In this document: in pieces, positions 755-62,305 of the stretch | How positions within the stretch are numbered: the first letter of the stretch is position 1 | Layout of the letters: every line of letters begins with the position of its first letter | Origin: Neolewinella agarilytica | Lineage (GTDB): Bacteria > Bacteroidota > Bacteroidia > Chitinophagales > Saprospiraceae | Assembly (NCBI RefSeq): GCF_900110645.1 | Contig: NZ_FOFB01000014.1 | Span: 1-64,000, forward strand | Reading direction: 5' to 3' | Length of the DNA: 64,000 nucleotides | Program-made: the position numbers and the translations under genes | Notes under the pieces: generated by a model | Told to the model about the DNA's origin: nothing | What the model saw: only the letters and a program-made list of their open reading frames with translations | The model's database searches: none

Positions 755-771
755 GCACCTGCGTCCGCGCC
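755..771 (+). repeat. Dispersed 18-bp repeat R1, copy 1
   Basis: GCACCTGCGTCCGCGCC matches the R1 core exactly. It lies between folA and the sigma factor gene, about 47 bases before the sigma start codon. Confidence 0.75.
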
Positions 772-818
772 TGCACTAGTCTTGTGGAATTATTTCTTTC
801 CTACCGAAATTTAAAATC

Positions 819-1316
819 ATGACGCCGCAGGAAATTCAGCAAATCAGCAACCGGTTCTATCCCGAATTCAGGCCCTACGCCCTTACCCTTACCCGGGATG
901 AAGATAAAGCGGCTGATCTGTTGCAGGAAGCGATCTACCTGGTGATCAAAAACCACGAGCGCTTTACGAACGGTACTAACCTGCAGGCGTGGGTGAAAAC
1001 CATTATTCGCAACGTATTTATTACGGGGTACCGAAAAAAGAAGCGTCGTCGGGAAATTACGGAAGAGCAGCCGCCGGCCAGCAATTGGTCTAACCAAACG
1101 ACGGAGCTCAACCCCGCTGAAAGTGATCTGGGCGCGGAAGAAATTATGTCTCGCATCGAAGAACTCCCCGAAATATATCGCCGGTCTTTCCTGCTACATT
1201 TTAACGGGATGAAGTATAAGGACATCGCCACCATCACGAACGTCCCCATCGGCACGGCCAAGAGCCGCGTCTGGACGGCGCGTAATATGCTGCGGGAGAA
1301 GGTGAAGCGGGATTGA
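819..1316 (+). CDS. ECF-type RNA polymerase sigma factor
   Basis: A 165-residue sigma-70 family protein with only regions 2 and 4, as in ECF sigma factors. Region 2 spans roughly residues 10-75 and includes the DLLQEAIYLV stretch that contacts core polymerase. A basic RKKKRRRE patch follows near residue 67-75. Region 4 spans roughly 112-160 with the helix-turn-helix YKDIATITNVPIGTAKSRV that reads the -35 region. No anti-sigma gene is adjacent, so it may be controlled by its own transcription or by a distant partner. An R1 repeat sits in its upstream region. The family call is certain; the regulon is unknown. Confidence 0.92.
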   Translation: MTPQEIQQISNRFYPEFRPYALTLTRDEDKAADLLQEAIYLVIKNHERFTNGTNLQAWVKTIIRNVFITGYRKKKRRREITEEQPPASNWSNQTTELNPAESDLGAEEIMSRIEELPEIYRRSFLLHFNGMKYKDIATITNVPIGTAKSRVWTARNMLREKVKRD

Positions 1317-1372
1317 GAGGGTATAGGAAAGTTTTACCCTTGGGCTGAGTTTGTTTGCTACGGAGTAATTTT

Positions 1373-1403
1373 CAGCATTCAGCATTCAGCATTCAGCATT
1401 CAG
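1373..1403. repeat. Heptamer array (CAGCATT)4
   Basis: Four perfect tandem copies of CAGCATT (1373-1400) plus a partial CAG lie between the stop codons of the convergent sigma factor gene and four-helix-bundle gene. It is one of several locus-specific 7/8-bp arrays in the window. Confidence 0.9.
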
Positions 1404-1412
1404 GCGGGAGGG

Positions 1413-1796: not shown

Positions 1797-1861
1797 CTCT
1801 TTTTTGTTTCTGCAATGATTAGGCGGCCAACCTCTTTTATTCGTATTTTAAACGAATACTT

Positions 1862-1875
1862 ACGTTTATAAACGT
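1862..1875. promoter_or_regulatory. 14-bp perfect palindrome upstream of the four-helix-bundle gene
   Basis: ACGTTTATAAACGT is its own reverse complement. It lies in an AT-rich stretch about 70 bases before the minus-strand start at 1796. It could be an operator for a dimeric regulator; this is inference. Confidence 0.35.
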
Positions 1876-1942
1876 TTAAATACGGATAAATCGAATTGAT
1901 TTTAGCGTAAAATTTGGTTGTTTAACCCCTACTATTTTTCTT

Positions 1943-4205: not shown

Positions 4206-4805
4206 TTATTCCTCAACGATCTCTACTTCATCGATCAGGAATTCCAGAACGCTATGAGCGGGCACTAAGGTGTCTCCACGGGGCCCCGTCAGCCCATCAG
4301 CACCGTAGGCCAGCTCGCTGGGGGTGAGAATCCGGATGGCGCCGCCTGGTTTCAGGCGTTGCAGGGCCAGGTTCCAGGCAGGGATTAACTGGCCAATGAT
4401 AAAACGTAACTTTTTGCCGCGTTTGCGACTGTCGTCAAAGACTTTTCCATCCAGGAAAGTTCCCTGATAGTGGGCGTGGACAATGTCACCTTCAGCCAGC
4501 GGGCTGTAGTCTCCGGGCTCAAGGATTTCGTAGAAATATCCTTCCGGGGCGGCATAAACGTCATAATTCTGGTCAATAGCCCGGTTGATGATGGCGTTGC
4601 GTTGGCGGCCGGCGCGGTCGTCAGAAGGAGAAAGCTCCGTTATGAGCCGCTCTTCAATGGCCCCTCTGGTGGCTTCATCTTTTTCGGGCGCGGACGCAGG
4701 TGCAGGGGAAGAACCCGAACAGCAGGGGAGGGCGAAGACCAGTATGGTTGCCAGTAGGAAAGTAGTAAGACGAGGATGGAGCATAGTTGAAGGGATCTTC
4801 TTCAT
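4206..4805 (-). CDS. FKBP-type peptidyl-prolyl isomerase, lipoprotein
   Basis: A periplasm-facing prolyl isomerase anchored as a lipoprotein. The signal peptide ends in a lipobox before a CC pair at about residues 28-29 (ALPCC). A low-complexity linker APASAPE follows; it is encoded exactly by an R1 repeat copy, as if the repeat had inserted in frame behind the signal. The FKBP domain covers about 105-197 with GDIVHAHYQGTFLDGKVFDDS and the late motif LTPSELAYG. Family members assist folding of exported proteins. It is convergent with ksgA with no base between the two stop codons. ATG 4784 is a possible alternative start. Confidence 0.9.
   Translation of the reverse strand: MKKIPSTMLHPRLTTFLLATILVFALPCCSGSSPAPASAPEKDEATRGAIEERLITELSPSDDRAGRQRNAIINRAIDQNYDVYAAPEGYFYEILEPGDYSPLAEGDIVHAHYQGTFLDGKVFDDSRKRGKKLRFIIGQLIPAWNLALQRLKPGGAIRILTPSELAYGADGLTGPRGDTLVPAHSVLEFLIDEVEIVEE
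4686..4703 (-). repeat. Dispersed repeat R1, copy inside FKBP gene
   Basis: The minus strand reads GCACCTGCGTCCGCGCCC, a perfect core. It is in frame and codes for the APASAP linker after the lipobox. Confidence 0.8.
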
Positions 4806-11000: not shown

Positions 11001-12310
11001 GCTATCAGTTCTCTCTGTCAAGCCAGCCATGCTCTGAGTTTTTCTCTACACCTTCTAACTACAGTTTTAATTACAATTCTGGCACGGAGTATCAAGCCGT
11101 TTTCGGTATCGTTCCTACTAATGATAATCCTGGATTAAGCGTTACGTTCAATTCCTCCACCATCCGCTGCGGCTTCGAGCACGACTTCTGGCTCACTATC
11201 CTCAACGACGGCTGCCAACCGCTGGCGGGGGAGGGGAGGGTTACTTTCCCGGAGGAGATGGAGTTTCTCGATTCCGACGCCGTGCCGCTGAGCCAGGAGG
11301 AGAATACCCTCACCTTTGCCTTTGATACCCTGCAGCCGAATGCCTCCCAGCGTTTCCGGATTCGCTTCCGGATGCCAGACGAGAATTTTGCCGGGCTGCC
11401 GGTGGAGCTGGGCGCAGTCGCAGGTGCCATGACGGTTGATGGAGCAATGGTGGAGGCGGATACCTTCGCCTATTCCCAAATCCTCCGCTGCGCCATCGAC
11501 CCCAACGACAAGCAGGTAAGCCCCAGCAGACCCGAACCCTCCGGCAGCAACTACACCCAGCTTGACGAAACACTCCGCTACACTATCCGCTTCCAGAACA
11601 CAGGCAATGACACAGCCTTCACCGTCCGCATTCAGGATAAGATATCGGAATCCCTCAATCTGGAAACCCTAAAGCCACTAGCTGCCAGCCATCCCTATAG
11701 CGTCTCGGTGCGCAACGATCGGACCGTCTTCTTCCTCTTCGAAGACATTCTCCTGCCCGACAGCACCACTAACCTCCCCGGCAGCCAGGGCTTCGTCACC
11801 TTCGAGATCCAGCCCTTCTCCGACCTCGACGACTTCTCCACCATCGATAACACCGCCGGCATCTACTTCGACTTCAATCAGCCCGTCATCACCAACACCG
11901 TCACCTCCACCCTCGTCGAGTTCCTCGACGAAGACCAGGATGGCTTCCTCTTCTACGAAGACTGCAACGACCAAAACTTCGACATCAACCCCGCTGCCGA
12001 AGAAATCCCCGGAAACGGCATTGACGAAAACTGTGACGATTCGGACTTTCCCGTCAGTACTTACACTGCTTTAACGGGCAATCTGCAAGCATTTCCTAAC
12101 CCCACAACGGGGGAATTGAGATTGTCTTACTCTGGTGGCACGTTACTCAATGGAACCCTTTTCAGCGCAACGGGAGCTAAATTACAGGCGTTCCGGTTTC
12201 GGCAAAATCACCAGCTGGACCTCAGCGCTCTTCCGGCGGGCCTGTATCTCTTGCAGCTAAAAGAACCCATTACGGGAGAAGGGGCAGTGATAAAGGTGAT
12301 TAGGGAGTGA
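8084..12310 (+). CDS. Giant secreted protein with beta-propeller-like repeats, SdrD_B, DUF11/DUF7619-like, MopE-like and T9SS type A domains
   Basis: A 1408-residue surface protein. The signal peptide (1-20, ending IVAQ) is followed by about 900 residues of repeats with ELW/ELF-x-TDGTxxGT phrases, typical of propeller-like proteins in Bacteroidota. An SdrD_B-like Ig domain starts near 923 (GEVFKDDNGNGFRDVGEGG). A domain near 1140-1270 resembles DUF11/DUF7619 (DPNDKQVSP, YTIRFQNTGNDTAF). A MopE-like metal-binding segment DQDGFLFYEDCNDQNF follows at about 1286, and a T9SS type A sorting domain ends the protein (FPNPTTGELRLSY, LPAGLYLLQL). Base composition jumps within the gene: about 11140-12050 is far more C-rich than the AT-richer 5' part. 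A role in adhesion or enzyme display is inferred. Confidence 0.88.
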   Translation: MKNSLTLLAFFLFATAIVAQEIPYTLEIVDFNTEPAPSRGLIDIKSDSIGAFIVEEIPRGDFVISFFDGNSLTELYRHEEEPHLHGVTDNGLFFSLPIPNQTWKYDLYFLKPGGQVNQISRTPIHTTKSYVFQNRLYHFSQVDGVRVFGSNNVSTLLSDEFSTTFTSDLVFEFGDQLVYDSGSGVYITNGTRFGTKEIFPDSRGDLLTYNNLLFYGNLPFDLDVYDPETGQVTDLTENLPNLPEGINVFNFAVASDQGVLFVGQSPTTGRELFITDGTKTGTSLLIEMVPGPEDGVSYFDFVGTSEGIGNQLVFGSISQDNTQQLWITNGATGGALPLLKLTGFDQINRTSIISKRHPDGGNILSVQERFGTSSNQQLYLYTDTLVELTDAGKSTFDDEILMLNNRVLVEEYENGFDNPPSLKSYGTTPEDVYTIGYLPNDNEIVLATPDALFFKGNDGEDAFDLLYTRGGVNDFNLFRRVGRGFDWDLVQPFTIGDILYFYFFDELYGEALYSARPDDSSPELMVNLYDNSVGRSPKGIFAIGGKLVVWYDDLRGEDRLLYGGTSTDVTTVSGSDIIGEPDQSILTVDDRHFFQRGRDVYEIDLSSGQIREVNINLPGDYSSFFWTAINQRLYRMTREYDLDLNMNIYALVEFDLLTETLAVIQVDTVDDEPFENLEMATDGEMVYFTYRTSSYSGPAYYNPSTGIITNLEGVDTNETLRYRRIGDNVALEVDSYFNTGPSYWLSPRGVGQELNVGVGSGKTYNYPDHFLFLKNESGDLFSVDKSTGEAIQLSVAAAWVTDIGNEEAIFFYDNFVTNEWELWETDGSEAGTKMILELNDLPFNGPINVQRWGDLVAIIPDYGELQLYNPATRQLETVDVELPGLSDGLVPIGNRLYFVANHPVFGTELHYLTLSGNNYISGEVFKDDNGNGFRDVGEGGIPNVRVEVAGGNITGVFTRQDGTFILGAAEGESYQFSLSSQPCSEFFSTPSNYSFNYNSGTEYQAVFGIVPTNDNPGLSVTFNSSTIRCGFEHDFWLTILNDGCQPLAGEGRVTFPEEMEFLDSDAVPLSQEENTLTFAFDTLQPNASQRFRIRFRMPDENFAGLPVELGAVAGAMTVDGAMVEADTFAYSQILRCAIDPNDKQVSPSRPEPSGSNYTQLDETLRYTIRFQNTGNDTAFTVRIQDKISESLNLETLKPLAASHPYSVSVRNDRTVFFLFEDILLPDSTTNLPGSQGFVTFEIQPFSDLDDFSTIDNTAGIYFDFNQPVITNTVTSTLVEFLDEDQDGFLFYEDCNDQNFDINPAAEEIPGNGIDENCDDSDFPVSTYTALTGNLQAFPNPTTGELRLSYSGGTLLNGTLFSATGAKLQAFRFRQNHQLDLSALPAGLYLLQLKEPITGEGAVIKVIRE
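11410..11427 (-). repeat. Dispersed repeat R1, weak copy in giant cargo gene
   Basis: The plus strand reads GGGCGCAGTCGCAGGTGC, 16 of 18 matching the reverse core. It codes GAVAGA, the same frame as the copy in the cobA C-terminus (GATAGA). It could be chance. Confidence 0.4.
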
Positions 12311-14010: not shown

Positions 14011-16980
14011 TCATCCCCAACTCCGCAACAAGCCCTCCGCCGTACTCACCGCCTTTACCCCCAACAAGTCCTTTACCTGATGCCGGCAGCTGGTGCCGGA
14101 GGCAACGACGACGGTCTCCGGGGGCAATTCGCGCAAGTGGCGTAGCAGCGATTGTTCCGCAATGGTTTTGCTTAGCTCGTAGTGTTCCGCTTCGTAGCCG
14201 AAGGAGCCGGCCATGCCGCAGCAGCCACTGTCCAGTAACCGAACGTTAAAATTAGTGGGCAGGGATAAGGCCGCCGCGCATTTGCCCGCGTCGCCGAGGG
14301 CCTTTTCGTGGCAGTGGACGTGGAGGACGAGGTCGACGGCTTCCGGCCCGAAATCTTCCGGCCCGAGCTGGCCGGCGGAGAACTCCCGGAAGAGGAATTC
14401 ATCGAGGGTGTAGACGTTGCGGGCAAGTTCTTTGGCTTTAGCGGCCAGCTCTCCGCGCAGTAGTTTGGGGTATTCATCGCGGAAACCCAGGATGGCGCTG
14501 GGCTCGATGCCTACCAGTGGAGCCTCCTCGCTTACCAGCCCCGAAAAAAGGGCTACGTTGGCTTTCGCCCGCTGGCGTGCTGCGGGTAGCAGGCCCTTGC
14601 TGAGCTGAGCGCGACCGCTGGTCGCGTGCTCCGGCCATTGCACCCGGTAGCCGAGTCGCTCCAGCAGGGTGACGGTGGCCTGGCCGACGTGGACGTCCTG
14701 GAGGTTGGTGAATTCGTCGCCGAAGAGATAGACACCTCTTCCCAACCCCTCTCCGGAGGAGAGGGGATTAGTGGACCGCATGGCGTTCCTTGTTTGGTCA
14801 TTGAACCATCCTCTCAGGCTTTTTTTAGGGAAAGCGGGTAAAGACCGTGCTGGCGCAATCCCCGCCACTTTTTTGAGGACGGGGCTAAAGAGCTTCAGCC
14901 CAAAATTAGCCAGCCTGGGTACTTTTCCCCCCAGGGTGTAAAGCGTTTCATTGGCCGCAATGAGGCGGGTGCGGAGGGAGGTCTTTCCTTTCTGGTGGAG
15001 GTATTCCGCCTTGAGGTTGGTCATGTCCACCGAGCTGGGGCATTCGCTGGTGCAGGCTTTGCAACTCAGGCAGAGGTCGAGGGCCTCCTGGAGGGCGGGG
15101 TGAGCGAAAGGATCATCGTGCTGATTACGGGTTAATACTTCGCGCAGGGTGTTGGCGCGGCCGCGGGTGCTGTGTTGTTCTGAACGCAGGGCCCGGTAGG
15201 AAGGGCACATAGCTCCTCCGGATAGCTTACGGCAGTCTCCGGAGCCATTACATTTTTCAATAGCAGGGAGCAGGCCGCCATCAGCGCTGAAATCGAGTAG
15301 GGTGGGGTAGTCCGGAGTAGCGACATCGGCTTCGTAGCGCAGGTCTTCGTTCATCGGCGGGGCCTCTACGATCTTGCCGGGGTTGAAGATGCCGGCGGGG
15401 TCCCAGGCCCGCTTGAGCTCCAGGAGGAGTTGGTATACCTCCGGGCCGAGCATCTCCGGCAGGAAGGGCGCGCGTACCCGCCCGTCGCCGTGCTCACCGC
15501 TCAGGCTGCCGCCGTATTTTTTGACCAGACGGGCTACGTCACGGGTGATGGCGTAAAAGTCTTGTCGTCCTTTCGTCGTCTTCAGGTTGAGCACGGGACG
15601 CAGGTGGATTTCCCCCGCGCCGGCGTGGGCGTAGTAAATGGCATTTTGCCCGTAGAACTTCATGAGTTCGGCGACATCGTCGATGTAGTCCGCCAGGTCC
15701 GGCAGCGCAACGGCCGTGTCTTCGATGCAGGCTACTGCTTTGGCATCGCCGACCATATTCCCCAGAATGCCCAGGCCGGCGGAGCGGAGGGCCCAGGCTT
15801 TGGCGACGTTCCTGGCCCCACTTACGTAGCCGGTAGTGATCAGGCTACCCTGAAGCTCCTGAACCGTGTCGAGGTCTTCTTCCATGACTTTGGCCAGGCG
15901 AAGCGCTTCGGCATCGGTGTTTGCTCTGAACTCGACGAGTAAAATGGCACGCGGGTCTCCCTGGACGAAGTTCGCGTTTTTCGCCTGATCGGGGTTCGTG
16001 CGGGCAAGGCGGAGGATGGTGTCATCCATCAGCTCACACATAAAGGGCTGATGCCGCATGGCGGCCTGGGTAGCGCGCATGGCACCGTTGATGCTGCTGA
16101 AGTGGACGGCAGCGACGGCAGTTCCTGCCGGCGGCAACGGCAGTATCCTGACCTTAAGCCGGGTGGTGAAGGCCAGAGTTCCCTCCGAGCCGGCCAGTAA
16201 CGTACAGAGGTTAAAGGCAGGGCCACCGGGCGTGAAGGGAGCCTGCCGGGCCAGCAGATCGAGGGCGTAGCCCGTGTTGCGGCGGCTGACGGCGGCCTTC
16301 GGAAAGGCTTTGACGATCTGCTGTCGCCTGTTTGGATCCTTCAGCGTCGTTTCGAGAAATTGATAAACGGCCCGGAGGGTTTCACTTTGCTCAGTTACCT
16401 CACCCTGCACCTGCGTTTGCGCCCCCTGCTGAAGTGCCCCGAAATCATGCACACTTCCGTCAGCCAGTACCGCCCGGGCCTCCAGCACGTGCTCCCGGGT
16501 GGAGCCTACCGTAATGCTGGTGCTGCCACAGCTGTTATTTCCGAACATGCCGCCCAAAGTGCAGCGGTTGGCCGTGCTGGTGTTGGGCCCGAACCAGTAG
16601 CCTAAGGGCGCGAGGGCACCGTTGAGCTGATCCCGGATAACACCGGGCTCCACGATGGCGTAACCTTCGGCCGTATTTATCTCCAGAATCCGGGTCAGGT
16701 ACCGGCTCACGTCGATCACTAAGCCACCGCCAATTGCCTGTCCCGCCAGGCTCGTACCTCCGGCTCTTGGCGTGATGGACAGCGCGTTCTCCCCCGCAAA
16801 ACGAACGCAGGCCGCGATGTCCTCTTCGGAACGTGGAAAGACAACGCCCAATGGGCGTTGCCGATAGACGCTGGCGTCCGTGGCATACAGGATGCGATGG
16901 GCTTCGTCAAGGTGAAGTTCACCCTGAATGGACTCCGCTAAATTCTGCCAGGGAGGATTTTTGGAAATGGGACTGGACAT
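14011..16980 (-). CDS. FAD-linked oxidase / Fe-S reductase fusion (GlcD-GlpC type, D-lactate dehydrogenase-like)
   Basis: A 989-residue fusion that oxidises a 2-hydroxy acid such as D-lactate or glycolate and passes electrons to the quinone pool. An FAD-binding PCMH domain covers about 30-260 (PRAGGTSLAGQAIGGG, NNSCGS), and the FAD-oxidase C-terminal domain reaches about 560 (SGEHGDGR, FNPGKI). A 4Fe-4S part has CNGSGDCRKL and CLSCKACTSECPSSVD near 590-660. A C-terminal cysteine-rich part (HCHEKA, DSGCCGMAGSFG) completes it. ATG 16980 is chosen over an upstream GTG. A diverged R1 copy encodes the GAQTQVQ insert near residue 190. Confidence 0.9.
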   Translation of the reverse strand: MSSPISKNPPWQNLAESIQGELHLDEAHRILYATDASVYRQRPLGVVFPRSEEDIAACVRFAGENALSITPRAGGTSLAGQAIGGGLVIDVSRYLTRILEINTAEGYAIVEPGVIRDQLNGALAPLGYWFGPNTSTANRCTLGGMFGNNSCGSTSITVGSTREHVLEARAVLADGSVHDFGALQQGAQTQVQGEVTEQSETLRAVYQFLETTLKDPNRRQQIVKAFPKAAVSRRNTGYALDLLARQAPFTPGGPAFNLCTLLAGSEGTLAFTTRLKVRILPLPPAGTAVAAVHFSSINGAMRATQAAMRHQPFMCELMDDTILRLARTNPDQAKNANFVQGDPRAILLVEFRANTDAEALRLAKVMEEDLDTVQELQGSLITTGYVSGARNVAKAWALRSAGLGILGNMVGDAKAVACIEDTAVALPDLADYIDDVAELMKFYGQNAIYYAHAGAGEIHLRPVLNLKTTKGRQDFYAITRDVARLVKKYGGSLSGEHGDGRVRAPFLPEMLGPEVYQLLLELKRAWDPAGIFNPGKIVEAPPMNEDLRYEADVATPDYPTLLDFSADGGLLPAIEKCNGSGDCRKLSGGAMCPSYRALRSEQHSTRGRANTLREVLTRNQHDDPFAHPALQEALDLCLSCKACTSECPSSVDMTNLKAEYLHQKGKTSLRTRLIAANETLYTLGGKVPRLANFGLKLFSPVLKKVAGIAPARSLPAFPKKSLRGWFNDQTRNAMRSTNPLSSGEGLGRGVYLFGDEFTNLQDVHVGQATVTLLERLGYRVQWPEHATSGRAQLSKGLLPAARQRAKANVALFSGLVSEEAPLVGIEPSAILGFRDEYPKLLRGELAAKAKELARNVYTLDEFLFREFSAGQLGPEDFGPEAVDLVLHVHCHEKALGDAGKCAAALSLPTNFNVRLLDSGCCGMAGSFGYEAEHYELSKTIAEQSLLRHLRELPPETVVVASGTSCRHQVKDLLGVKAVSTAEGLLRSWG
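16407..16424 (+). repeat. Dispersed repeat R1, copy inside the FAD oxidase gene
   Basis: GCACCTGCGTTTGCGCCC matches the core at 16 of 18 bases and lies antisense to the gene, where it encodes a Gln-rich loop. Confidence 0.55.
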
Positions 16981-18576: not shown

Positions 18577-19497
18577 ATGCTAGATGTGCTGATCGGTACG
18601 ATTCTTGCCCTCGTAATGTTTAGCATTGGACTGAGTTTGCAAACGGTTAATTTTCGCCGATTGTTCAGCAATCCACGAGTACTTTTTCTCGGTTTAGCCC
18701 TGCAATTGCTTGTTTTACCGGCAATTGCGTTCGTAGTTTGTTTTTTGTTGGACTTGCCGTCAGACTTCGCCGTAGGGGTGATTGTGCTGGCCGCTTGCCC
18801 CGGAGGGCTCACCAGTAATTTTATCAGTTTTTTATTGCGGGCGAACACAACTTTAGCGGTAAGTCTGACGATCTGCAACACATTTTTGTCGATGATAACG
18901 ATTCCCGTTATCGTAAACATGGGCCTTTATCAATTCTCAACGGGCGGAGAATTAGGCCAATTGCCGGTTTTGCCAACAGCGGGTAGCATATTCCTGATCG
19001 TTTTGGTTCCCGTTTTCATGGGCATGTTTTTCAGGGCCCGGTGGCAGGTGCAAGCTGCGTTTTTGCAGCCGAGATTGCGGTGGCTGAGCATTTTCCTTTT
19101 AGCGGCACTTTTTACCCTGAAACTTCTTGCGCCCACCAGCGCCGGAGGAAGTAACCTGACACTCCCTGAGCTCTATCAGATTTTACCGGCATCGCTGCTG
19201 GTAAACGCAGCCGCCCTGCTCTCCGGCTTTGCTTTTGGCCGTGCATTGGGTTTTGGCCGGAACGCCCAACTTACATTAGGGGTAGAGGCAGGGATTCAAA
19301 ATACGAGCCTGGCTTTCCTGATCACCTCCGTGCTGCTACAAAACGAGCAGATGCTGAAGCCGAGCCTGGTCTACGCTATGTTTACCTTCTTTACGGCCTT
19401 GCTCTACGGGCTATGGCTGAAGCCTGGTATGTTGAAAGTGATCAGACAGGAATGGAAGAATATGACGTTTTTTCCGGATGGGGAGAAAGGGAAGTAG
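18577..19497 (+). CDS. Bile acid:sodium symporter (SBF) family transporter
   Basis: A 306-residue inner-membrane protein with about nine hydrophobic segments, matching the SBF/BASS family that couples uptake of organic anions to sodium. Typical elements are VIVLAACPGGLTSNF in the crossing region (about 68-82) and the late GVEAGIQNTSLAFLI (about 232-246), which carries the conserved E-x-x-x-Q-N substrate and sodium site. The native substrate is unknown; in bacteria without bile acids it may be pantoate, pyruvate or another acid. The 325 bases upstream hold the candidate small RNA and no gene. Confidence 0.9.
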   Translation: MLDVLIGTILALVMFSIGLSLQTVNFRRLFSNPRVLFLGLALQLLVLPAIAFVVCFLLDLPSDFAVGVIVLAACPGGLTSNFISFLLRANTTLAVSLTICNTFLSMITIPVIVNMGLYQFSTGGELGQLPVLPTAGSIFLIVLVPVFMGMFFRARWQVQAAFLQPRLRWLSIFLLAALFTLKLLAPTSAGGSNLTLPELYQILPASLLVNAAALLSGFAFGRALGFGRNAQLTLGVEAGIQNTSLAFLITSVLLQNEQMLKPSLVYAMFTFFTALLYGLWLKPGMLKVIRQEWKNMTFFPDGEKGK

Positions 19498-22702: not shown

Positions 22703-22718
22703 GCACCTGCGTCCGCGC
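22703..22718 (+). repeat. Dispersed repeat R1, intergenic copy
   Basis: GCACCTGCGTCCGCGC, flanked by TTTTG and AAAAAAA, lies between the terminator and the 10-bp inverted repeat. Confidence 0.75.
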
Positions 22719-22851
22719 AAAAAAAGCGATCAGTGATTCGTCCTCAAAGCATCGCTGCCCGAAAACGGATCCCTGATCGCTTAAAGCGTGTCCACATTCA
22801 GGCACGCTTTTAAGGTTTTGTGGCATGATTGCTGAAGCAATCTTTGTGGCA

Positions 22852-28021: not shown

Positions 28022-28216
28022 AGTTTGCGGTGTTGGTGCATTTAGTTGTACGGCAGGCCTCCGTAAGATGTTCTTGCCTGGGAAGCAAGAGTTACGCGTT
28101 GTCGGCAGGCGACTTTCGTGTTTTGCGGCTGTTGCGCAGCAATCATTTGGCATCCTTGTGCCGAAAGCATTTCTTTGTGTTCATCGTTTTACAACTGCCC
28201 TAACCCTTTAACAACT

Positions 28217-28948
28217 ATGCTTCAGCCATTCTTTGCTTCCGCGTTTTTTCTCTGCACCCGCGTCCGCGCCCAACTGATCTGCCTGCTCTTTTTGCTGGTG
28301 CCTCCCCTTTTTGGCCAGCCACAAACGGATCCCATCCGTACGGTCGAAAACATCACGCCACAAACCAATGCCTACGCGCAGAAGGCCAGGGAATTGATGC
28401 AGGCTGGCGAAAATGCTGCTGCCACCGATTACAACCGGGATTCCCTGCTGCTTGCCCTGCTCGGGCAGGAGGTGACGCCTTCCTATCTGGTAGACCGTAA
28501 GGGCGCTGTCTGGAACCTGGGCGTGATGGACCAACCCTTTATTATTCATACATTCTTTCTGAATTGTGGACACTGCGAGCATTACGTCGACGCCATCAAT
28601 TCCGTCGCTACGGCTTTCGCGGATGAGGTGGTCACCTTTGTCCTGATGCCTACGCCGGAAGCGGATGGTCTGGCAATGATGGAACGGTTTAATGATGATG
28701 TTGTCATCCTTTTTGACGATCACTTCCGGGACCCCTATTCCATGCCCGACGATCCCCGCTTACTGGGGCTCATTGGTTACCCCATCACGCATTACATTAC
28801 GGGCAAGCGACGAATCGTCGGCCTTAACCGAGGAGGAGGACAGGCATATATTCATCCCCGAAAGGGAGCGAAAATAATCCTGAAAAAAAGGGAGCCTGAT
28901 GTGGAGAAACGGCTTCGGAAAGGGGTGGGGCGATTGTTGGAGTTTTGA
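28217..28948 (+). CDS. Exported thioredoxin-like protein (paralogue 1)
   Basis: A 243-residue exported protein. The core has a thioredoxin-like arrangement: beta strand FIIHTFFLNCGHCEHYVDAIN with a CGHC redox pair, a later VVILFDDHFRDP, and a cis-Pro-like YPITHYI before the last strands. The mature start QPQTDPIRTVE is shared with the paralogue at 31705-32385, which has CRLC instead. The signal peptide is odd: after MLQPFFASAFFL comes CTRVRAQ, encoded by an R1 repeat copy, then a second hydrophobic run to PPLFGQ. The repeat appears inserted into the signal sequence. ATG 28217 is the only sensible start. Confidence 0.78.
   Translation: MLQPFFASAFFLCTRVRAQLICLLFLLVPPLFGQPQTDPIRTVENITPQTNAYAQKARELMQAGENAAATDYNRDSLLLALLGQEVTPSYLVDRKGAVWNLGVMDQPFIIHTFFLNCGHCEHYVDAINSVATAFADEVVTFVLMPTPEADGLAMMERFNDDVVILFDDHFRDPYSMPDDPRLLGLIGYPITHYITGKRRIVGLNRGGGQAYIHPRKGAKIILKKREPDVEKRLRKGVGRLLEF
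28254..28271 (+). repeat. Dispersed repeat R1, copy inside a signal peptide
   Basis: GCACCCGCGTCCGCGCCC matches 17 of 18 bases and codes TRVRA within the signal peptide of the thioredoxin-like protein. Confidence 0.75.
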
Positions 28949-29011: not shown

Positions 29012-29057
29012 TTTTGGGCGCGGCCGCAGGTGCAATGGAAATTTTGGAGGCAAGGTG
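29012..29057 (-). repeat. Extended R1 unit (46 bp), intergenic copy
   Basis: The R1 core (29016-29033, reverse strand GCACCTGCGGCCGCGCCC) sits in a 46-bp block that matches 57837-57882 at 42 of 46 positions. There the block forms the C-terminal codons of cobA. Here it lies between two convergent genes. Confidence 0.8.
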
Positions 29058-33785: not shown

Positions 33786-34757
33786 TTACCGGATGACCTG
33801 ACTAAAAGCCTCCCGGTCTTTAAACGCCGGGTGGCCCGGCGCCCAGCCCGCCGTAAAGCGATAGCTCGTCGTCTTGCCTTCGGCCAGTTTTGCTTCCAGG
33901 TAGTAGGTGGAAGATACCGGCTGGGCGTCAGGAGCCAGTTCGCCGGTGTTCAGGTACAGGCTTTTATCCACCGAAGCGGCCATGCCGAGGAAATATTCCC
34001 CTTCGGCCTGGGGGCCGTGGGTGTAGGCGATGAAGCGATCCTCTTTTTCCAGGGTGTACAGGGTGTCAGAGTGCAAATTGACGATGCCAATGAGGAGGCT
34101 TTCTCCACCGGTCAGGCCACGGAAGGTTACCTCAGATTCATAGTGGTGGGTGCCGGCTTCAATACTGATGGCCCAGTCAAGATCGAGGGTTCGTCCCGCA
34201 ATCTCCAAGCCGCGGTATTCCAGCAGGAAACCGGATCGCTCAGCAGTCTCCTCGGTAATGCGCACTTTTTCCTCCCGGGCATCACCGATGCGGTGCACCT
34301 CCCCGTCAATCATCAGGGCGATGGTGCCCGCACCAAGGGAGTTGCCAGCCTTGAGCACATCCATACCCCAGTCAGACATTTTGTGGTAATTGTTCCGGTC
34401 CAGCCCGACGGTGTCCAGCACCATGTCCCGGACTTTTTTGCCGTGGATGTCGATGCCGTTGCGCCGGTCCCAGTACATCCGAAAAGCAATGTTCTCGTTC
34501 TCCCAGGCCGGTCCTTCGTTCTGGTAGATGGCGGGCATGATTTGCTCAATATGATCGGGCGCCCGGGTGAAGGAGGTTCCCTCCACGAATTCGTCATTCG
34601 CATTGCGTTTAGCCAGGCGAATGTTAGTACGTTGAACGATTGCTTCCGTGTCGGTTTCCGATTCTGTAGCAGAAGCATCGGGGGAGCTTTCGCAGGAGAA
34701 GAACAAGAGGGCGAGGCCGCAGGTGCAAAGGAGGGCTAAGGAAGCAAAGCGGTTCAT
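33786..34757 (-). CDS. DUF4861-like lipoprotein of the pectin/uronate locus
   Basis: A 323-residue lipoprotein (lipobox LLFFSC, Cys near residue 22). The mature protein resembles DUF4861 proteins found in polysaccharide loci of Bacteroidota: NENIAFRMYWDRRNGIDIHGK, then a beta-rich part resembling galactose-mutarotase-like sandwiches (SIEAGTHHYESEVTF). The exact catalytic role is unknown; processing of uronate-containing oligosaccharides is an inference from the locus. Its ATG overlaps the TGA of the regulator gene by ATGA, so they are translated from one mRNA. The signal peptide codes CTCGLA through an R1-like sequence. Confidence 0.75.
   Translation of the reverse strand: MNRFASLALLCTCGLALLFFSCESSPDASATESETDTEAIVQRTNIRLAKRNANDEFVEGTSFTRAPDHIEQIMPAIYQNEGPAWENENIAFRMYWDRRNGIDIHGKKVRDMVLDTVGLDRNNYHKMSDWGMDVLKAGNSLGAGTIALMIDGEVHRIGDAREEKVRITEETAERSGFLLEYRGLEIAGRTLDLDWAISIEAGTHHYESEVTFRGLTGGESLLIGIVNLHSDTLYTLEKEDRFIAYTHGPQAEGEYFLGMAASVDKSLYLNTGELAPDAQPVSSTYYLEAKLAEGKTTSYRFTAGWAPGHPAFKDREAFSQVIR
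34709..34726 (-). repeat. Dispersed repeat R1, copy inside a lipoprotein signal peptide
   Basis: The minus strand reads GCACCTGCGGCCTCGCCC, close to the core, within the hydrophobic part of the DUF4861-like signal peptide. Confidence 0.55.
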
Positions 34758-38910: not shown

Positions 38911-39825
38911 ATGAGCATCGAACAAGTTAAAATATCTCCTTCCGGTCCTTCATTATCCAGACTGGTGGCCGGGACAATGACCTGGGGAGAATGGGGAGTA
39001 GACTATTCCGCCAATAAAATGGCGGACCTTATTCAGCATTGCCTTGGTTTGGGTATAACGACCTTCGACCATGCTGACATCTACGGGCATTACTCAACGG
39101 AGGAGACTTTCGGTGAAGCCCTGAACCAACTGGGCACCAGCGTCCGCGCCCAAATGCAGTTAGTAACCAAGTGTGGCATCAACCTGAAGACTCATCGCCG
39201 GCCGGACATCCGCGTAAAGAGCTACGACAGTAGCCGTGCGCACATCATTGCGTCTGCCGAACGAAGCCTGAAAAACCTGCAGACGGACTACCTCGACCTG
39301 CTGCTTATTCACCGCCCCGATCCACTCATGCACCCGGCTGAAGTTGCTGAAGCCTTCCAGCACCTGAAGGAATCAGGGAAGGTTCGTCACTTTGGGGTTA
39401 GCAACTTTACCCCCAGCCAGTTTGAGCTGCTGGCGGATTGTACTTCCCTTGTGACCAATCAGGTAGAGTGTAATGCGCTGCATACTGACTGCCTCTTTGA
39501 CGGCACTTTTGATCAGTTGCTCACGGCAGATATCCGACCCATGATCTGGAGCCCGATTGGCGGAGCCAAGTACTTTAATGGCGAAGGCACCGCCGTCCTG
39601 CGCCTGCGGGATGCCGTTCAAACCCTCTCCGCCAAGTACGATGATGTTGGCGAAGATGTGATTCTTCTCGCCTGGCTACTGCAGCACCCGGTTGGCTGCC
39701 ATCCCGTTTTGGGAACGACCAAACCCAAACGTTTAGAAAAGGCCAGACTCGCCCTGAATTTACAGTTAGACCGCCAGGATTGGTTCATCATTCTGGAAGC
39801 AGGCCGCGGTCATGAAGTAGCCTGA
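38911..39825 (+). CDS. Aldo/keto reductase (YdhF-like)
   Basis: A 304-residue NADPH-dependent reductase with the AKR barrel. The catalytic set is visible: GITTFDHADIYGHY supplies Asp and Tyr (about 47-56), VTKCGI the Lys (about 84), and LLIHRPDP the His (about 131). LAWLLQHPVGCHPVLGTTKPKRLEKA is the NADPH-binding end. The substrate is unknown. ATG 38911 is preferred over GTG 38887. The segment GTSVRAQ before the catalytic Lys strand is encoded by an R1 copy. Confidence 0.9.
   Translation: MSIEQVKISPSGPSLSRLVAGTMTWGEWGVDYSANKMADLIQHCLGLGITTFDHADIYGHYSTEETFGEALNQLGTSVRAQMQLVTKCGINLKTHRRPDIRVKSYDSSRAHIIASAERSLKNLQTDYLDLLLIHRPDPLMHPAEVAEAFQHLKESGKVRHFGVSNFTPSQFELLADCTSLVTNQVECNALHTDCLFDGTFDQLLTADIRPMIWSPIGGAKYFNGEGTAVLRLRDAVQTLSAKYDDVGEDVILLAWLLQHPVGCHPVLGTTKPKRLEKARLALNLQLDRQDWFIILEAGRGHEVA
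39134..39151 (+). repeat. Dispersed repeat R1, copy inside the aldo/keto reductase gene
   Basis: GCACCAGCGTCCGCGCCC matches at 17 of 18 bases and codes for the loop TSVRAQ. Confidence 0.6.
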
Positions 39826-40365: not shown

Positions 40366-40401
40366 AATGCCCGCGGCCAGCCCTGCCGGCAACCGGCAGC
40401 A

Positions 40402-45139: not shown

Positions 45140-45202
45140 AATGGCAGTAGGGGGTAGTATGATAGTAGGTAGCTACTGCCATTGATCTGCTACTATCATA
45201 CT
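45140..45202. repeat. Two interleaved inverted repeats between convergent genes
   Basis: AATGGCAGTAG (45140-45150) pairs with CTACTGCCATT (45173-45183), and TAGTATGATAGTAG (45155-45168) pairs with CTACTATCATACT (45190-45202). The order A-B-A'-B' permits a pseudoknot in RNA rather than nested hairpins. Confidence 0.7.
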
Positions 45203-45558
45203 GCAGAAGCCAATCGTTCTACCAATAAATTCGTCATGCGCCGATTGACGCTGCTTTCGTTTTCCACGAAGTAGGTCATCTCTTCATGGGTGAACTGCCC
45301 GATGGCGATACCCAGTAGCAGGCCGCGAAGACGATTGTCCCGGGTAATAATTTGCTTGATTTTATCGAAACGCTGTTTGGCGGGCACTTGCTCCAGCCGG
45401 ACCTTCCGTTTTTGCAGATAGAGCCGGAAGGCGGCCAACAGCAGATCGTGCTGCATTTTCATAATGGGGCGAAGGGTCTCATTCTGAAACGATTCTTCGG
45501 GCGCGGACGCAGGGGCAAGGTCAAGTTGAGGGCGCAGGGCGAGTCGGGCTTCGGACAT
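45196..45558 (-). CDS. Conserved-looking cytoplasmic protein of unknown function
   Basis: A 120-residue protein with no signal peptide. The C-terminal 85 residues look helical and basic (LLAAFRLYLQKRKVRLEQVPAKQRFDKIKQII) with GQFTHEEMTYFVENESSVNRRMTNLLVERLASAV at the end. The N-terminal linker APASAPEE is encoded by an R1 copy in the same frame as in the FKBP lipoprotein. I do not recognise a family. The right-hand arrays at 45575-45658 lie just upstream of its start. Confidence 0.7.
   Translation of the reverse strand: MSEARLALRPQLDLAPASAPEESFQNETLRPIMKMQHDLLLAAFRLYLQKRKVRLEQVPAKQRFDKIKQIITRDNRLRGLLLGIAIGQFTHEEMTYFVENESSVNRRMTNLLVERLASAV
45499..45516 (-). repeat. Dispersed repeat R1, copy in the 45196-45558 gene
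   Basis: The minus strand reads GCCCCTGCGTCCGCGCCC (17 of 18) and codes APASAP. Confidence 0.75.
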
Positions 45559-45658: not shown

Positions 45659-45659
45659 A

Positions 45660-48153: not shown

Positions 48154-48173
48154 GCACCCGCGCTCCGGCGCCC
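48154..48173 (+). repeat. Dispersed repeat R1, variant with inserts
   Basis: GCACCCGCGCTCCGGCGCCC keeps the ends of the core with two extra bases inside. Confidence 0.45.
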
Positions 48174-51747: not shown

Positions 51748-53016
51748 GTGCTAACCGTCGCCATCATCTTCTTTTTGTTGTTGTCCGCTCTCTTCAGTGG
51801 TTCAGAAATCGCTTACGTTTCTGCTAATAAGTTACGGGTGGAGCTAAAGAAAAAGCGGGGAACCCGCCGGAGTAAAATCCTGGCAGGTTGGTTTGATAAG
51901 CCGGCGGATTTTCTCAGCACCATGCTGGTGGGTAACAATATCGCCCTGGTGGCTTTTACCTCCCTCATTACGGTTCCTCTGACCCTGATGGTAGCCCCAC
52001 GCCTGGGGTTGGGAGACGATAGCCTTTGGCTTTTGCTGGTCAATTCCTTTTTGATACTACCAATTATACTGGTATTCGGGGAGTATTTACCGAAGACTCT
52101 TTTTCGTTTGTACGCAGACGATGCGCTATACTTCATGGCCGTTCCGTTGCGCGCTTTACAGTGGCTGTTGTATCTGCCCAGCCGGATCATGACCAGCACC
52201 AGTGATATGCTGTTACGCTTCTTTTTTAAGCGGCCCAGTGAAGAGCTTGATACGGTACTTACCCGGCTTGATCTGGAAAACTTTGTCAATGAAAGCCAGT
52301 CCTCGTCGGATGAAGAAGTTAGTGGTATTGACACCAAACTCTTCGGCAACGCCCTGAACCTGGGTGAGGTAAAAGTAAAAGATTGTATGGTGCCGCGCAC
52401 GGAGATCGAAAGCGTAGACGTCAGTGCCAGTATCGATGATTTGGAAGCCCGCTTTCTGGAAACTCACCTGAGTCGTCTGTTAGTTGTCGACGGAGATATG
52501 GATGAGGTGCTGGGCTACGTTCATCATCAACAATTACTCGACCTGCCCACGGAAATCAAGGACATCGTGCTGGAGCTCACGTTCATTCCTGAAGTGGCGC
52601 GGGTGACAGACTTACTGGACCGATCCGTTAAAGAGCAACTCAGTATTGCCTGTGTGGTGGATGAGTTCGGCGGCATCGCCGGTGTGGTAACGATGGAAGA
52701 TCTGCTGGAAGAAATTTTCGGAGAGATCGAAGACGAATACGACGAGGACGAATACGTGGAAGAAGTGCTGGAAGATGATTGCTTCAAATTCAGCGGCCGT
52801 CTGGAGATCGACTACCTTAACGAAAAGTATGACCTGGGCCTGCCCGAAGGAGAATATCACACCCTGTCTGGTTTTGTCGTTACCGAAGCCGAACGAGTGC
52901 CGGAGCAGGATGAAAGCCTCGTATTAAAGGGCTTCCGCCTCCGGATGTTGGAAGTGTCCAATACACGAATTGAGGTTATCCACCTTAAGCAGGAATCAGA
53001 AACCGAAGCAGATTAG
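51748..53016 (+). CDS. CNNM/CBS-domain transporter (HlyC/CorC family)
   Basis: A 422-residue inner-membrane protein. The N-terminal DUF21/CNNM part (about 1-175) has four helices with FSGSEIAYVSANKLRVEL and MLVGNNIALV. A CBS pair follows (about 205-325) with CMVPRTEIESVD and GIAGVVTMEDLLEEIFGEI. A C-terminal CorC_HlyC domain ends it (GRLEIDYLNEKYDLGLP, YHTLSGFV). Members are linked to magnesium or cobalt export. The start is GTG 51748, since no ATG precedes the first helix. It lies 9 bases after lptC in one operon, an arrangement also seen in other Bacteroidota by memory. Confidence 0.9.
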   Translation: MLTVAIIFFLLLSALFSGSEIAYVSANKLRVELKKKRGTRRSKILAGWFDKPADFLSTMLVGNNIALVAFTSLITVPLTLMVAPRLGLGDDSLWLLLVNSFLILPIILVFGEYLPKTLFRLYADDALYFMAVPLRALQWLLYLPSRIMTSTSDMLLRFFFKRPSEELDTVLTRLDLENFVNESQSSSDEEVSGIDTKLFGNALNLGEVKVKDCMVPRTEIESVDVSASIDDLEARFLETHLSRLLVVDGDMDEVLGYVHHQQLLDLPTEIKDIVLELTFIPEVARVTDLLDRSVKEQLSIACVVDEFGGIAGVVTMEDLLEEIFGEIEDEYDEDEYVEEVLEDDCFKFSGRLEIDYLNEKYDLGLPEGEYHTLSGFVVTEAERVPEQDESLVLKGFRLRMLEVSNTRIEVIHLKQESETEAD

Positions 53017-53040
53017 TTAAGCCCTTCGTTCAGCTAAAGA

Positions 53041-53057
53041 GGCGCTGACGCAGGTGC
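53041..53057 (-). repeat. Dispersed repeat R1, intergenic copy
   Basis: The minus strand reads GCACCTGCGTCAGCGCC, one change from the core, 25 bases after the CNNM gene. Confidence 0.65.
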
Positions 53058-57835: not shown

Positions 57836-58606
57836 TCACCTTGCCTCCAAGCTTTCCATTGCACCTGCGGTAGCGCCCAAAACCTCCACTACCTCCCCAA
57901 TCACCAGTATGCCCTGACTACCTGAGCTGGCAGCTTGTTCCAGGGGAAGGGTGTCGTTTACGGTTCCGATGGTCGTTTCTGAAGCAGGCAGGCTGCCCGA
58001 CTGCAGCAGTGCCATCGGCGTTCCCTTCGCCCGATGACGAGCAAATAATTCTCCGATCTGAGCGATCTTGCGTGTGCCCATCAGAATGACAACCGTTGCT
58101 CCGGAGGACGCCGCCCGCTCCATATCCTCCGGGAGTGCGTGTCCCTTCGTGGTAGCCGTAAGCACCCAGAACCCGCGGCTCACCCCGCGGTGCGTCAAGG
58201 GAATCCCCGCCAGCGCCGGCACCGCCAGCGCACTGCTTACCCCCGGCACCACTACCAACGGAATCCCTGCCGCAGCGGCCGCCATCCATTCTTCCCCGCC
58301 ACGTCCGAAGACGAAAGGGTCCCCACCTTTCAGCCGTACAGCATGACCGTATTGCCGGGCACTGCTGACCAAAAGATCGTTGATGGCTTCCTGCCCCATG
58401 GCGTGTGCTCCACAACGTTTACCTACGAATATCCGTGGAATGCCAACCGGTGCATACTGGAGTAATTCTTCACTCACCAGGGCATCATAGAGGATAACGT
58501 CAGCGCCTTTGATTGCCCGCAGCCCTTTAAGCGTCAAAAGTTCGGGGTCACCGGGGCCGGCACCCACCAAAGTAATGCGGGAGGGGAAAGGAAGAGGAAA
58601 GCCCAT
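57836..58606 (-). CDS. cobA: Uroporphyrinogen-III C-methyltransferase (SUMT)
   Basis: Makes precorrin-2 from uroporphyrinogen III, the first step to siroheme, which nitrite reductase NirB needs. The 256 residues fit a stand-alone SUMT. Motifs are ITLVGAGPGDPELLTLKG (about 11-28), RLKGGDPFVFGRGGEE (about 90-105), VPGVSSALAVPALAGIPLTHRG (about 118-139) and VVILMGTRK (about 169-177). The last residues, LGATAGAMESLEAR, are encoded by a 46-bp extended R1 unit in place of a usual C-terminus. It is divergent from nirB across 89 bases with a dyad operator. Confidence 0.92.
   Translation of the reverse strand: MGFPLPFPSRITLVGAGPGDPELLTLKGLRAIKGADVILYDALVSEELLQYAPVGIPRIFVGKRCGAHAMGQEAINDLLVSSARQYGHAVRLKGGDPFVFGRGGEEWMAAAAAGIPLVVVPGVSSALAVPALAGIPLTHRGVSRGFWVLTATTKGHALPEDMERAASSGATVVILMGTRKIAQIGELFARHRAKGTPMALLQSGSLPASETTIGTVNDTLPLEQAASSGSQGILVIGEVVEVLGATAGAMESLEAR
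57837..57882 (+). repeat. Extended R1 unit (46 bp) forming the cobA C-terminus
   Basis: The core GCACCTGCGGTAGCGCCC (57861-57878) lies in a block matching 29012-29057 at 42 of 46 positions. It codes, on the other strand, the last 14 residues of CobA and reaches the stop codon. Confidence 0.8.
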
Positions 58607-61206: not shown

Positions 61207-61274
61207 CCGGCCGCTCATCCGATGCATCTTTCACCTGGCGAAGCCGGTGAAAGTTCATCGGATGCGTCGGCCGG
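61207..61274. other. Large stem-loop between nirB and nirD
   Basis: CATCCGATG (61216-61224) and CTTTCACC (61228-61235) pair with GGTGAAAG (61246-61253) and CATCGGATG (61256-61264); GCCGGCCG and CGGCCGG extend the stem at its base. With no T run after it, RNA processing or differential nirB/nirD expression is more likely than termination. Confidence 0.7.
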
Positions 61275-61318
61275 AACCCCTCAGTTTTAGTAAGCCGTAA
61301 TTGCCAAATTCTTACAAC

Positions 61319-61696
61319 ATGACCCAATCTACCCCTCAATACCAAACCGTCTCTCCCGAACAGGTGACCACCTGGTTCAAAGCTGGCCGCACGAATCAAT
61401 TTCCCATTGGCGCCGGCGCCACCATCAAATACGGGGATAAGCAAATTGCAGTCTTTTACTTCAGCCGGCAAGATCGGTGGTATGCCTGCCAGAACCTCTG
61501 TCCGCATAAGCTGGAAAACGTGCTGGGGCGGGGCCTGATCGGGGAGCAGGATGGTATTCCGAAGGTGGCCTGTCCGCTACATAAAAAGACCTTTAGCCTG
61601 ACGACGGGCGAAAACCTGAACGGTGAATGCCCGCCGGTAGCGGTATACCCGGTGAAAGTGGAGGACGACTACGTATACGTAGGTTTTGCCGATTAG
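61319..61696 (+). CDS. nirD: Nitrite reductase (NADH) small subunit
   Basis: A 125-residue Rieske-fold partner of NirB. The cluster ligands are present: C-x-H in NLCPHK (about 57-61) and CPLH in VACPLHKKTF (about 82-91), so unlike some NirD proteins it should hold a [2Fe-2S] cluster. It ends in a typical CPPVAVYPVKVEDDYVYV strand. ATG 61319 is chosen since the earlier in-frame codon gives only six extra residues. Confidence 0.92.
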   Translation: MTQSTPQYQTVSPEQVTTWFKAGRTNQFPIGAGATIKYGDKQIAVFYFSRQDRWYACQNLCPHKLENVLGRGLIGEQDGIPKVACPLHKKTFSLTTGENLNGECPPVAVYPVKVEDDYVYVGFAD

Positions 61697-61711
61697 CACT
61701 ACCTTGTGCTT

Positions 61712-62305
61712 ATGGTGGACGTAAGTAAAATAGAACAAGCTTATGCCGTGATTGATGCCGCTAATGCGGCTGATTCCCGGCGCATTGAGGTCGATGGGCA
61801 GTTATTGCCCTACGAAATGGTGTACGGGCAACGGATGACGGCAGCCCTGACCCACTTTGCACCTGCGGCCGCGCCCCCGCTTCAACTGGCCGCCCGCGCC
61901 CAACATCTGGAGCGCTGGGTCATTCCCCGTTCGGATTATCCGATGAACAGAGTTGGATATCATAACTGGCGCAACGCCCAGAAAAAACGGCACGCAAAGC
62001 GAGCCGAAGAATTACTGCTTCCTCTGGGTTTTTCTTCCGAAACGCTGGAACGAACGAAGTTTTTACTGGAGAAGAAAAACCTGAAGAAAGACCCCGATAC
62101 ACAGACGCTGGAAGACGTGATCTGCCTGGTTTTTCTGGAGCATTACGCGGCGGACTTTGCCGCTGACCATCCCGAGGAAAAGGTGATCGACATTTTACAG
62201 AAAACCTGGCGGAAAATGTCAGCTGACGGGCAGTCTGCGGCGCTCAAACTGGCGCTTCCGGCAGCCGTAGGCGAGTTGGTGAATAAGGCGCTGGGAAATG
62301 AATAA
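61712..62305 (+). CDS. DUF4202 family protein
   Basis: A 197-residue cytoplasmic protein of the DUF4202 family, often seen next to nitrite or nitrate assimilation genes. Conserved parts: AARAQHLERWVIPRSDYPMNRVGYHNWR (about 58-85) and DVICLVFLEHYAADFAADHPEEKVIDIL (about 133-160), both rich in His/Asp/Glu that may bind a metal. Its role is unknown. The linker HFAPAAAPPLQ is encoded by an R1 copy. The kinase start overlaps its stop by 8 bases (ATGAATAA), so the two are translationally coupled. Confidence 0.88.
   Translation: MVDVSKIEQAYAVIDAANAADSRRIEVDGQLLPYEMVYGQRMTAALTHFAPAAAPPLQLAARAQHLERWVIPRSDYPMNRVGYHNWRNAQKKRHAKRAEELLLPLGFSSETLERTKFLLEKKNLKKDPDTQTLEDVICLVFLEHYAADFAADHPEEKVIDILQKTWRKMSADGQSAALKLALPAAVGELVNKALGNE
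61859..61876 (+). repeat. Dispersed repeat R1, copy inside the DUF4202 gene
   Basis: GCACCTGCGGCCGCGCCC, the same variant as at 29016-29033, encodes APAAAP in a loop. Confidence 0.8.

Follow-up and report, generated by a model that had tools for sequence, protein, structure and literature searches.

R1, a high-copy bipartite motif with even per-strand spacing in the genus Neolewinella/Lewinella

R1 sites in the 64-kb window

The window analysed here is a stretch of 64,000 nucleotides from Neolewinella agarilytica (assembly GCF_900110645.1, contig NZ_FOFB01000014.1, positions 1 to 64,000). Its genes include those for an FKBP-type isomerase, an FAD-linked oxidase and a tetrapyrrole methylase, and within and between genes lies R1, a short sequence that a preliminary description of the window had listed in 16 copies and taken for a real dispersed repeat not due to chance. 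We found 15 matches to the R1 18-mer core (GCACCTGCGTCCGCGCCC; up to three mismatches, both strands) where 0.08 are expected, and none of 100 shuffles reached 15. The whole source genome carries 432 forward and 475 reverse copies at up to two mismatches (907), against 2 + 2 = 4 for the reversed pattern. R1 is therefore a real high-copy dispersed sequence, as had been claimed, and the genome-wide enrichment that the preliminary description proposed to look for is present.

Table 1 R1 sites and R1-like matches in the window (ORF, open reading frame; G123 and G163, related genomes)
Feature	Position	Strand	Context
R1 site	755..772	+	intergenic, 47 bp ahead of ORF 819-1316
R1 site, exact core	4686..4703	-	5' part of FKBP-type isomerase gene; reads APASAP soon after lipoprotein-like CC
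R1 site	11410..11427	-	antisense in large DUF7619 gene
R1 site	16407..16424	+	antisense in FAD-linked oxidase gene; box1 TTGCTC present
R1 site	22703..22720	+	intergenic
R1 site	28254..28271	+	close to start of ORF 28118-28948 (no Pfam match)
R1 site	29016..29033	-	intergenic
R1 site, variant loop	32538..32555	+	adjoins 3' end of gene 32570-32941
R1 site	34709..34726	-	within signal-peptide region of DUF4861 gene; kept at same place in G123 (L189)
R1 site, GCCCC variant	45499..45516	-	in ORF 45196-45558; identical in G163
R1 site, 6-nt loop (GCACCCGCG-CTCCGG-CGCCC)	48154..48171	+	intergenic; core identical in G163, spacer differs
R1 site	53040..53057	-	intergenic, 24 bp past ORF 51748-53016; G163 counterpart degenerate only
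R1 site	57861..57878	+	antisense, 3' end of tetrapyrrole-methylase gene; G163 has site with other loop
R1 site	61859..61876	+	sense, in DUF4202 gene; reads APAAAP
Weak, doubtful R1-like match	19034..19051	-	SBF transporter gene; absent from earlier list; outside 160-site counts
Not R1, ordinary coding sequence	39134..39151	+	aldo/keto reductase
Judged not R1, ordinary coding sequence	15153..15170	-	FAD/4Fe-4S oxidase; also 15036-15053

Fifteen of the 16 copies listed earlier are in our called set. The remaining one, at 43026, lacks an intact GCACC, lies inside coding sequence conserved in G163 and is doubtful. The match at 39134 was called but is ordinary coding sequence: relatives conserve the protein sequence at this place, and one related locus (L147) retains the region without the DNA core. 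The preliminary description had held that relatives sharing the same residues at genic sites would speak against R1; this does apply to 39134. The copy placed at 53041 is a genuine site whose true start is 53040. The matches at 15036 and 15153 are in the called set yet absent from the earlier list; both are judged ordinary coding sequence of the FAD/4Fe-4S oxidase, in which HSTRGRA is presumably a conserved motif. The DUF7619 gene around site 11410 also matches a secretion sorting tail, under that family's curated cut-off. A site in the same orientation as 32538 is found at that gene end in two further loci (L190 and L199).

Copy number and anatomy of the motif

The source genome is a draft assembly of 6,220,808 bases in 74 contigs, with the replication origin not mapped. 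We trained a position matrix for R1 on 577 kb of it (contig C25 whole and bases 1-400,000 of contig C27). At 11 bits or more, the matrix scan of these 577 kb gave 157 sites and the reversed sequence 3; at 7 bits it gave 164 sites and the reversed sequence 9. Because lowering the cut adds only 7 sites, real R1 sites are well separated from background. The final set holds 160 sites after removal of four ordinary-coding or weak matches, which scales up to roughly 1,700 sites per genome. Three of the four (15036, 15153 and 19034) were removed only for the 160-site counts (pair distances, mean gap, the coefficient of variation (CV) of 0.49, and the intergenic fraction 83/160) and remain in the alternation, gene-context, gene-order, strand-shift, minimum-distance and 7-mer-control results. 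The fourth, 39134, is still inside the alternation, gene-context and gene-order counts and is out of the strand-shift, minimum-distance, 7-mer-control and 160-site results.

R1 has an asymmetric consensus in the matrix and consists of a box1 (CNYTGC), a spacer, GCACC-H-GCG, a loop of mostly 4 (4-6) nt and then CGCC. Of 174 GCACCHGCG sites in the 577 kb, 124 have 4 nt between GCG and the following CGC, 11 have 5 nt and 15 have 6 nt; distances of 3 and 7 nt occur once each, and 22 sites have no CGC within 3-8 nt. Core positions 0-4 and 6-8 (GCACC.GCG) hardly vary, as the choice of the 174 sites dictates and as the matrix also shows; the three positions right after them are free. The flanks given in the preliminary description were right in outline (C-H-Y-T immediately before the core, A-rich sequence after it), but the separate upstream box (CNYTGC, extended C-N-Y-T-G-C-T), which starts mostly 21-26 nt ahead of the core, had been overlooked.

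Distribution and species dialects

We counted R1 in 149 genomes, a sample of a larger group of the order in which the source genome is included. Four genomes of its own genus carry 907, 274, 1337 and 553 copies, 15 other genomes of the same family carry none, and no further genome among the 149 exceeds six. The genus Neolewinella/Lewinella comprises 21 genomes, of which the count covers 4. An exact scan of a genome collection returned at least 101 stretches; among the matches listed, nearly all are from Neolewinella/Lewinella or from Saprospiraceae/Bacteroidia metagenome-assembled genomes, plus six unrelated single hits. R1 is thus confined to the genus within the genomes sampled. A de novo look at four other genera (46-80 kb each) showed no similar motif; their genomes have 37-39% G+C, and a very different dialect could escape such a search.

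R1 has species dialects. In 80 kb of each genome, G151 favours the loop GCCG (13/21), G068 has GCTCC cores (12/19) with loops such as TCCC and TTCC, and G154 has GCACC[TC]GCG with GCCC as its commonest loop (5/22), while enrichment in G156 is weak (one pattern 13 times, 5 in the control). G157, a genus genome beyond the four counted, nearly lacks the original form in its 80 kb and uses its own motif, TTTTACCTGCG-CTCCGC-CGCC (also given as TACCTGCGCTCCGCC): ACCTGCG..CGCC has 10 matches there and 1 in the control, and parts of the motif are top over-represented 10-mers of that genome. G143 uses GCACC[CT]GCG with a loop of the form.CAG, being GCAG in 45 of 84 sites. Its upstream pattern differs as well, with CCC about 10-12 nt ahead of the core and box1 not as in the source genome.

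Conservation in a close relative

Between the source genome and G163, aligned pieces mostly have 80-87% DNA identity, and 20 source R1 sites lie in alignable segments. The preliminary description had proposed aligning orthologues to find clean insertion boundaries. Instead, 18 of the 20 sites keep the core in both species, one is degenerate (C27:23511), and one, the intergenic C27:26619, faces a gap of about 40 bp in G163 and is the only present/absent site found. Over all 20 sites, identity is 0.939 at core positions 0-8 and 0.930 at positions 12-16, 0.850 in box1, 0.81-0.85 in the flanks, 0.692 in the spacer and 0.633 in the loop; being limited to alignable DNA, this set may contain too large a share of stable sites, and window site 53040 lies between aligned segments. 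The divergent pair at C27:36467/36546 persists in G163 though its surroundings are unalignable, the source genome having an extra gene beside it. A core and a box1 more conserved than their flanks, with the core kept where the surroundings cannot be aligned, argue that the motif itself is maintained and not its surroundings. Variable internal distances, a conserved core, a fast spacer and dialects together suggest that something recognises R1, and on these comparisons R1 is best read as a maintained recognition site.

Spacing on the two strands

The strand bias that the preliminary description proposed to measure is absent over the whole assembly (432 and 475 copies); we found a strong strand-specific spacing rule instead. 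Gaps between R1 sites on the same strand have a mean of 7.1 kb and a CV of 0.49 (160 sites), while strand-blind spacing is only weakly even (CV 0.77). Pairs closer than 2 kb are on the same strand in 2 cases and on opposite strands in 49. At 2-3 kb the counts are 7 and 18, at 3-4 kb 20 and 28, and beyond that they are about equal. Among 419 control seven-mers of similar number, the lowest same-strand CV is 0.81, and the seven-mer that reaches it (TGCACCT) is itself part of R1. Control positions matched for the genic/intergenic mix have a CV of 1.02 (lowest of 300, 0.86).

The rule holds in other species. In G143, a matrix trained on that genome (105 sites, control 10) gives a same-strand mean of 7.5 kb, a CV of 0.54, and 5 same-strand pairs against 36 opposite-strand pairs below 2 kb. 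The source-genome matrix applied to 8-kb loci of other species gives 13 and 63. Neighbouring sites alternate in strand in 128 of 162 cases in the source genome and in 76 of 97 in the loci of other species, and this alternation follows mostly from the per-strand spacing. When one strand is shifted along the other, the greater part of it remains (same-strand neighbours 0.27, observed 0.22, P 0.037), and the R1 sets of the two strands are nearly independent in spacing. There are two exceptions to this independence: divergent pairs below 200 bp are in excess (14 vs 2.3 expected) and convergent pairs below 1 kb are scarce (3 vs 11.4 expected). Close pairs in the 577 kb point away from each other, and no two of their core starts are less than 67 bp apart.

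Random sites held to a hard minimum distance of up to 2.5 kb are less regular than R1 (0 of 2000 runs match), and at 3 kb P is 0.021. Long gaps are also too few, and loss of close direct repeats alone is insufficient to explain the spacing. The per-strand spacing implies that R1 is read strand-specifically with a reach of a few kb, and any proposed mechanism has to satisfy this strong quantitative constraint.

Gene context and gene order

Using simple gene models made for the analysis, we found 83 of 160 sites to be intergenic (83 of 164 before removal of the four matches), compared with 15% of random positions, in agreement with the earlier statement that about half are. Genic sites are sense in 42 cases and antisense in 39, and sites between codirectional genes point with the gene direction in 26 and against it in 17. 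With orientation this near to random, we rejected the idea that transcription sets the orientation of R1. Sense genic sites favour the beginning of their genes: 13 of 42 lie in the first 100 bp and none in the last 100 bp, and several fall inside signal-peptide-like stretches. The in-frame copies at window position 34709, C25:81599 and C25:158957 form part of such stretches (..LCTSVRAQ, ..LLCTCGLALLFFSC), one of which is common to G123.

We compared gene order in four 20-kb regions (43 gaps) with the relatives G123, G150 and G151. A gap was counted as broken when the adjacent genes are apart in at least half of the relatives placing both, and as site-bearing when R1 lies between the genes or within 130 bp. 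Breaks are commoner at R1 (10 of 11 site-bearing gaps, 12 of 32 site-less gaps; Fisher P 0.004). G163 was left out of this test, some of its breaks being contig ends, and is included in pair counts, where gaps of at least 250 bp are broken in 12/15 with a site and 7/24 without, and gaps of 60-250 bp in 5/10 and 13/45. Strand alternation had suggested mobile gene cassettes with inward-facing R1 ends. This idea was dropped, since alternation follows mostly from the per-strand spacing; it is also countered by a block of about 27 kb in G163, absent at that place in the source genome, which has no called R1 at its ends. The block (C322:10706-37933) separates two genes whose distance in the window is 36 bp (40365-40401), and extra DNA at this position is also present in G151 and G150.

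Y1 transposases are common in the genus (20 of 21 genomes). Among 30 Y1 loci, mostly of 3.3 kb, 16 carry any R1, a share that does not clearly exceed what the site density would give (no formal test). R1 flanks the gene on both sides in five loci (L258, L260, L266, L272 and L275), every pair pointing outward.

Other repeats were met alongside R1. One dispersed repeat (C27:111798-112006; L215 11798-12006) measures about 200 bp, is unrelated to R1 and has at least 27 matches of 84-91% identity across G163 contigs, and another, of about 70 bp (C27:28681-28753; L211 8681-8753) has dozens of matches in G123 and G163. The dominant over-represented 10-mers besides R1 include a heptamer series, GTTGCAGGTT, in C27:1-80000 of the source genome and the words ATTCACTCATT/ATTCACGCAT in G151 (C82:100001-180000); tandem arrays probably lie behind these words in both genomes.

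Interpretation of R1

We tentatively read R1 as a directional recognition signal, read by strand and kept by drive, whose most likely role is in DNA transfer and homologous recombination, a reading that we consider plausible but somewhat short of probable. A putative cell protein would recognise box1 together with GCACC-H-GCG-(4-6 nt)-CGCC, and a process would then act from R1 in one direction across several kb. DNA adjoining R1 would preferentially be taken up, transferred or recombined, and as a consequence molecular drive would maintain and multiply the copies. Where two sites share a strand and lie within about 2-3 kb of each other, the second would add nothing and decay, while the other strand would require its own sites; even spacing on each strand would follow from these two conditions. 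Dialects would follow changes in the recognising protein.

Several observations weigh against this reading. PF00437, the ATPase of type IV pilus and type II secretion systems, has no match at E<=1e-10 in the source genome or G068 (a match occurs in 1 of 46 family genomes), and the classical uptake machine seems to be missing in the source genome. In Haemophilus, motif orientation is without effect on uptake (PMC1939737), and spacing by strand is thus not what known uptake sequences would lead one to expect. The mini-hairpin of GCG and CGC, mostly a 3-bp stem, did not exceed shuffled sequences in stability when five sites were folded as single-stranded DNA (z -1.1 to 1.9), and we rejected it as a functional element. 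Alternation is weak among pattern-called sites of G143 (49 of 83 neighbours). The gene-order result comes from a small sample (43 gaps in four 20-kb regions, compared with three relatives), and R1 is not the sole place of breaks, since 15 of 22 pairs at convergent gaps without a site are broken too.

A short non-autonomous mobile repeat (of the repetitive extragenic palindromic (REP), Rickettsia palindromic element or miniature inverted-repeat transposable element type), spread in the genus and losing same-strand neighbours as direct repeats recombine and the DNA between them is deleted, is an unlikely explanation. It would account for the high copy number inside and outside genes, the excess of divergent pairs below 200 bp, the one empty site at C27:26619 and the five Y1 loci with outward pairs on both sides. 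The distances from box1 to core and from core to CGCC vary, unlike those of a copied unit, and the core is conserved and mostly kept in G163 while spacer and loop change fast. Direct-repeat deletion does not predict the shortage of long gaps, and R1 at Y1 loci is not clearly above site density.

We think it improbable that R1 is a chromosome-organising or boundary motif at which a bound protein marks the borders of gene blocks. The intergenic half of the sites, the gene-order breaks, the core conserved between unalignable flanks at C27:36467, the divergent close pairs and the scarcity of convergent ones would all suit such a role, but the other half of the sites lie within genes and a protein on double-stranded DNA leaves the near-independent spacing of the two strands unexplained.

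Strand specificity, a range of several kb and regular cover of both strands would also suit a Chi-like site that controls recombination and that a translocating nuclease-helicase reads on one strand. We regard this as quite improbable: R1 extends over about 45 nt with variable internal spacing, known Chi sites being far shorter, and its copies divide evenly between the strands of the draft assembly (432/475), a count by assembly strand and not by replication direction.

An RNA element in transcripts of either strand (an antitermination boxA/nut-like site or a Rho site) is very improbable. Box1 of the source genome, TGCTC(T/C)TT, presumably resembles boxA, a hairpin may follow box1, and sense genic sites lean towards the 5' end; against this, orientation to genes is near random and no Rfam family matches the window at gathering scores. 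Box1 differs in G143, and a boxA/nut-like antitermination site was rejected on that ground. Finally, the view that R1 is ordinary coding sequence or a composition artefact, which holds for 39134 and is judged to hold for 15153 and 15036, is virtually impossible for the motif as a whole and already refuted on the genome-wide scale by the 157 sites at 11 bits or more against 3 reversed, the genus restriction and the intergenic half.

If R1 is a transfer signal as we favour, it would bring sequence-directed gene exchange to light in a phylum where the accessible part of the literature searched describes none, and would record across the genome what DNA moves and which way. It is possible, if doubtful, that R1 is the first such signal of Bacteroidota, a strand-specific directional signal for DNA transfer (uptake, packaging or recombination) without type IV pili, placed about every 7 kb per strand and with species dialects. 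Whatever its function, the extrapolated 1,700 or so maintained sites would imply a novel recognition protein.

Comparison with known systems

The preliminary description knew of no described family with this core, and the open-licence part of the literature on repeats and signals in Lewinella/Neolewinella or Bacteroidetes likewise contains no description of R1. Of the three analogues it named, DNA uptake sequences fit best. HIP1 is over-represented genome-wide like R1 but is a palindromic octamer, whereas R1 is asymmetric and bipartite. Rickettsia palindromic elements insert cleanly in frame into genes, and some R1 copies are likewise in frame (signal peptides, linkers). The analogy has little support, as R1 is not palindromic, shows no clean insertion series and has positions mostly shared with G163. 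Chi resembles R1 as a strand-specific signal with a kb range, which for R1 is suggested by the spacing; R1 is far longer, bipartite and without net strand bias of the assembly. REP elements and their associated tyrosine transposases (RAYT) share with R1 the small high-copy repeats and frequent inverted dimers. REP families include GTAG- and CGTC-tagged repeats, the latter in five phyla including Bacteroidetes (PMC3733652). R1 has no invariant tag of either kind (CGTC in its core runs into the variable loop), no long palindromic stem and no consistent Y1-transposase linkage; RAYT/REP identity was rejected, as the Y1 genes are not clearly flanked by R1.

DNA uptake sequences (DUS) and uptake signal sequences (USS) are, like R1, short motifs in very many copies, inside and outside genes and on both strands, with dialects and reported even spacing, and in USS weaker boxes accompany the core. 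About 1,900-2,250 DUS are given per Neisseria genome; their spacing corresponds to the length of conversion fragments, and recent copies are put down to recombination and not to point mutation (PMC2397512). Further reports are of eight DUS dialects and some strand preference for single-stranded DUS (PMC12061091), and of even spacing according to Karlin et al. (cited in PMC1939737), less even than compaction would require (PMC1939737). R1 shares with DUS massive over-representation, dialects, even spacing (per strand) and the presence of ComEC (PF03772), which is found in 45 of 46 family genomes and so is not specific. It may work like a DUS, but we do not class it as one because no PF00437 match was found and, indirectly, because the 2 against 49 pairs below 2 kb speak against orientation independence. 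R1 also belongs to another phylum and is a longer motif with variable internal spacing. Its sites are even on each strand at about 7 kb, with close pairs divergent and core starts at least 67 bp apart, whereas USS occur about every 1 kb (PMC7811141) and DUS every 1.5 kb (PMC2397512), with no strand rule mentioned in the accessible parts of these two papers.

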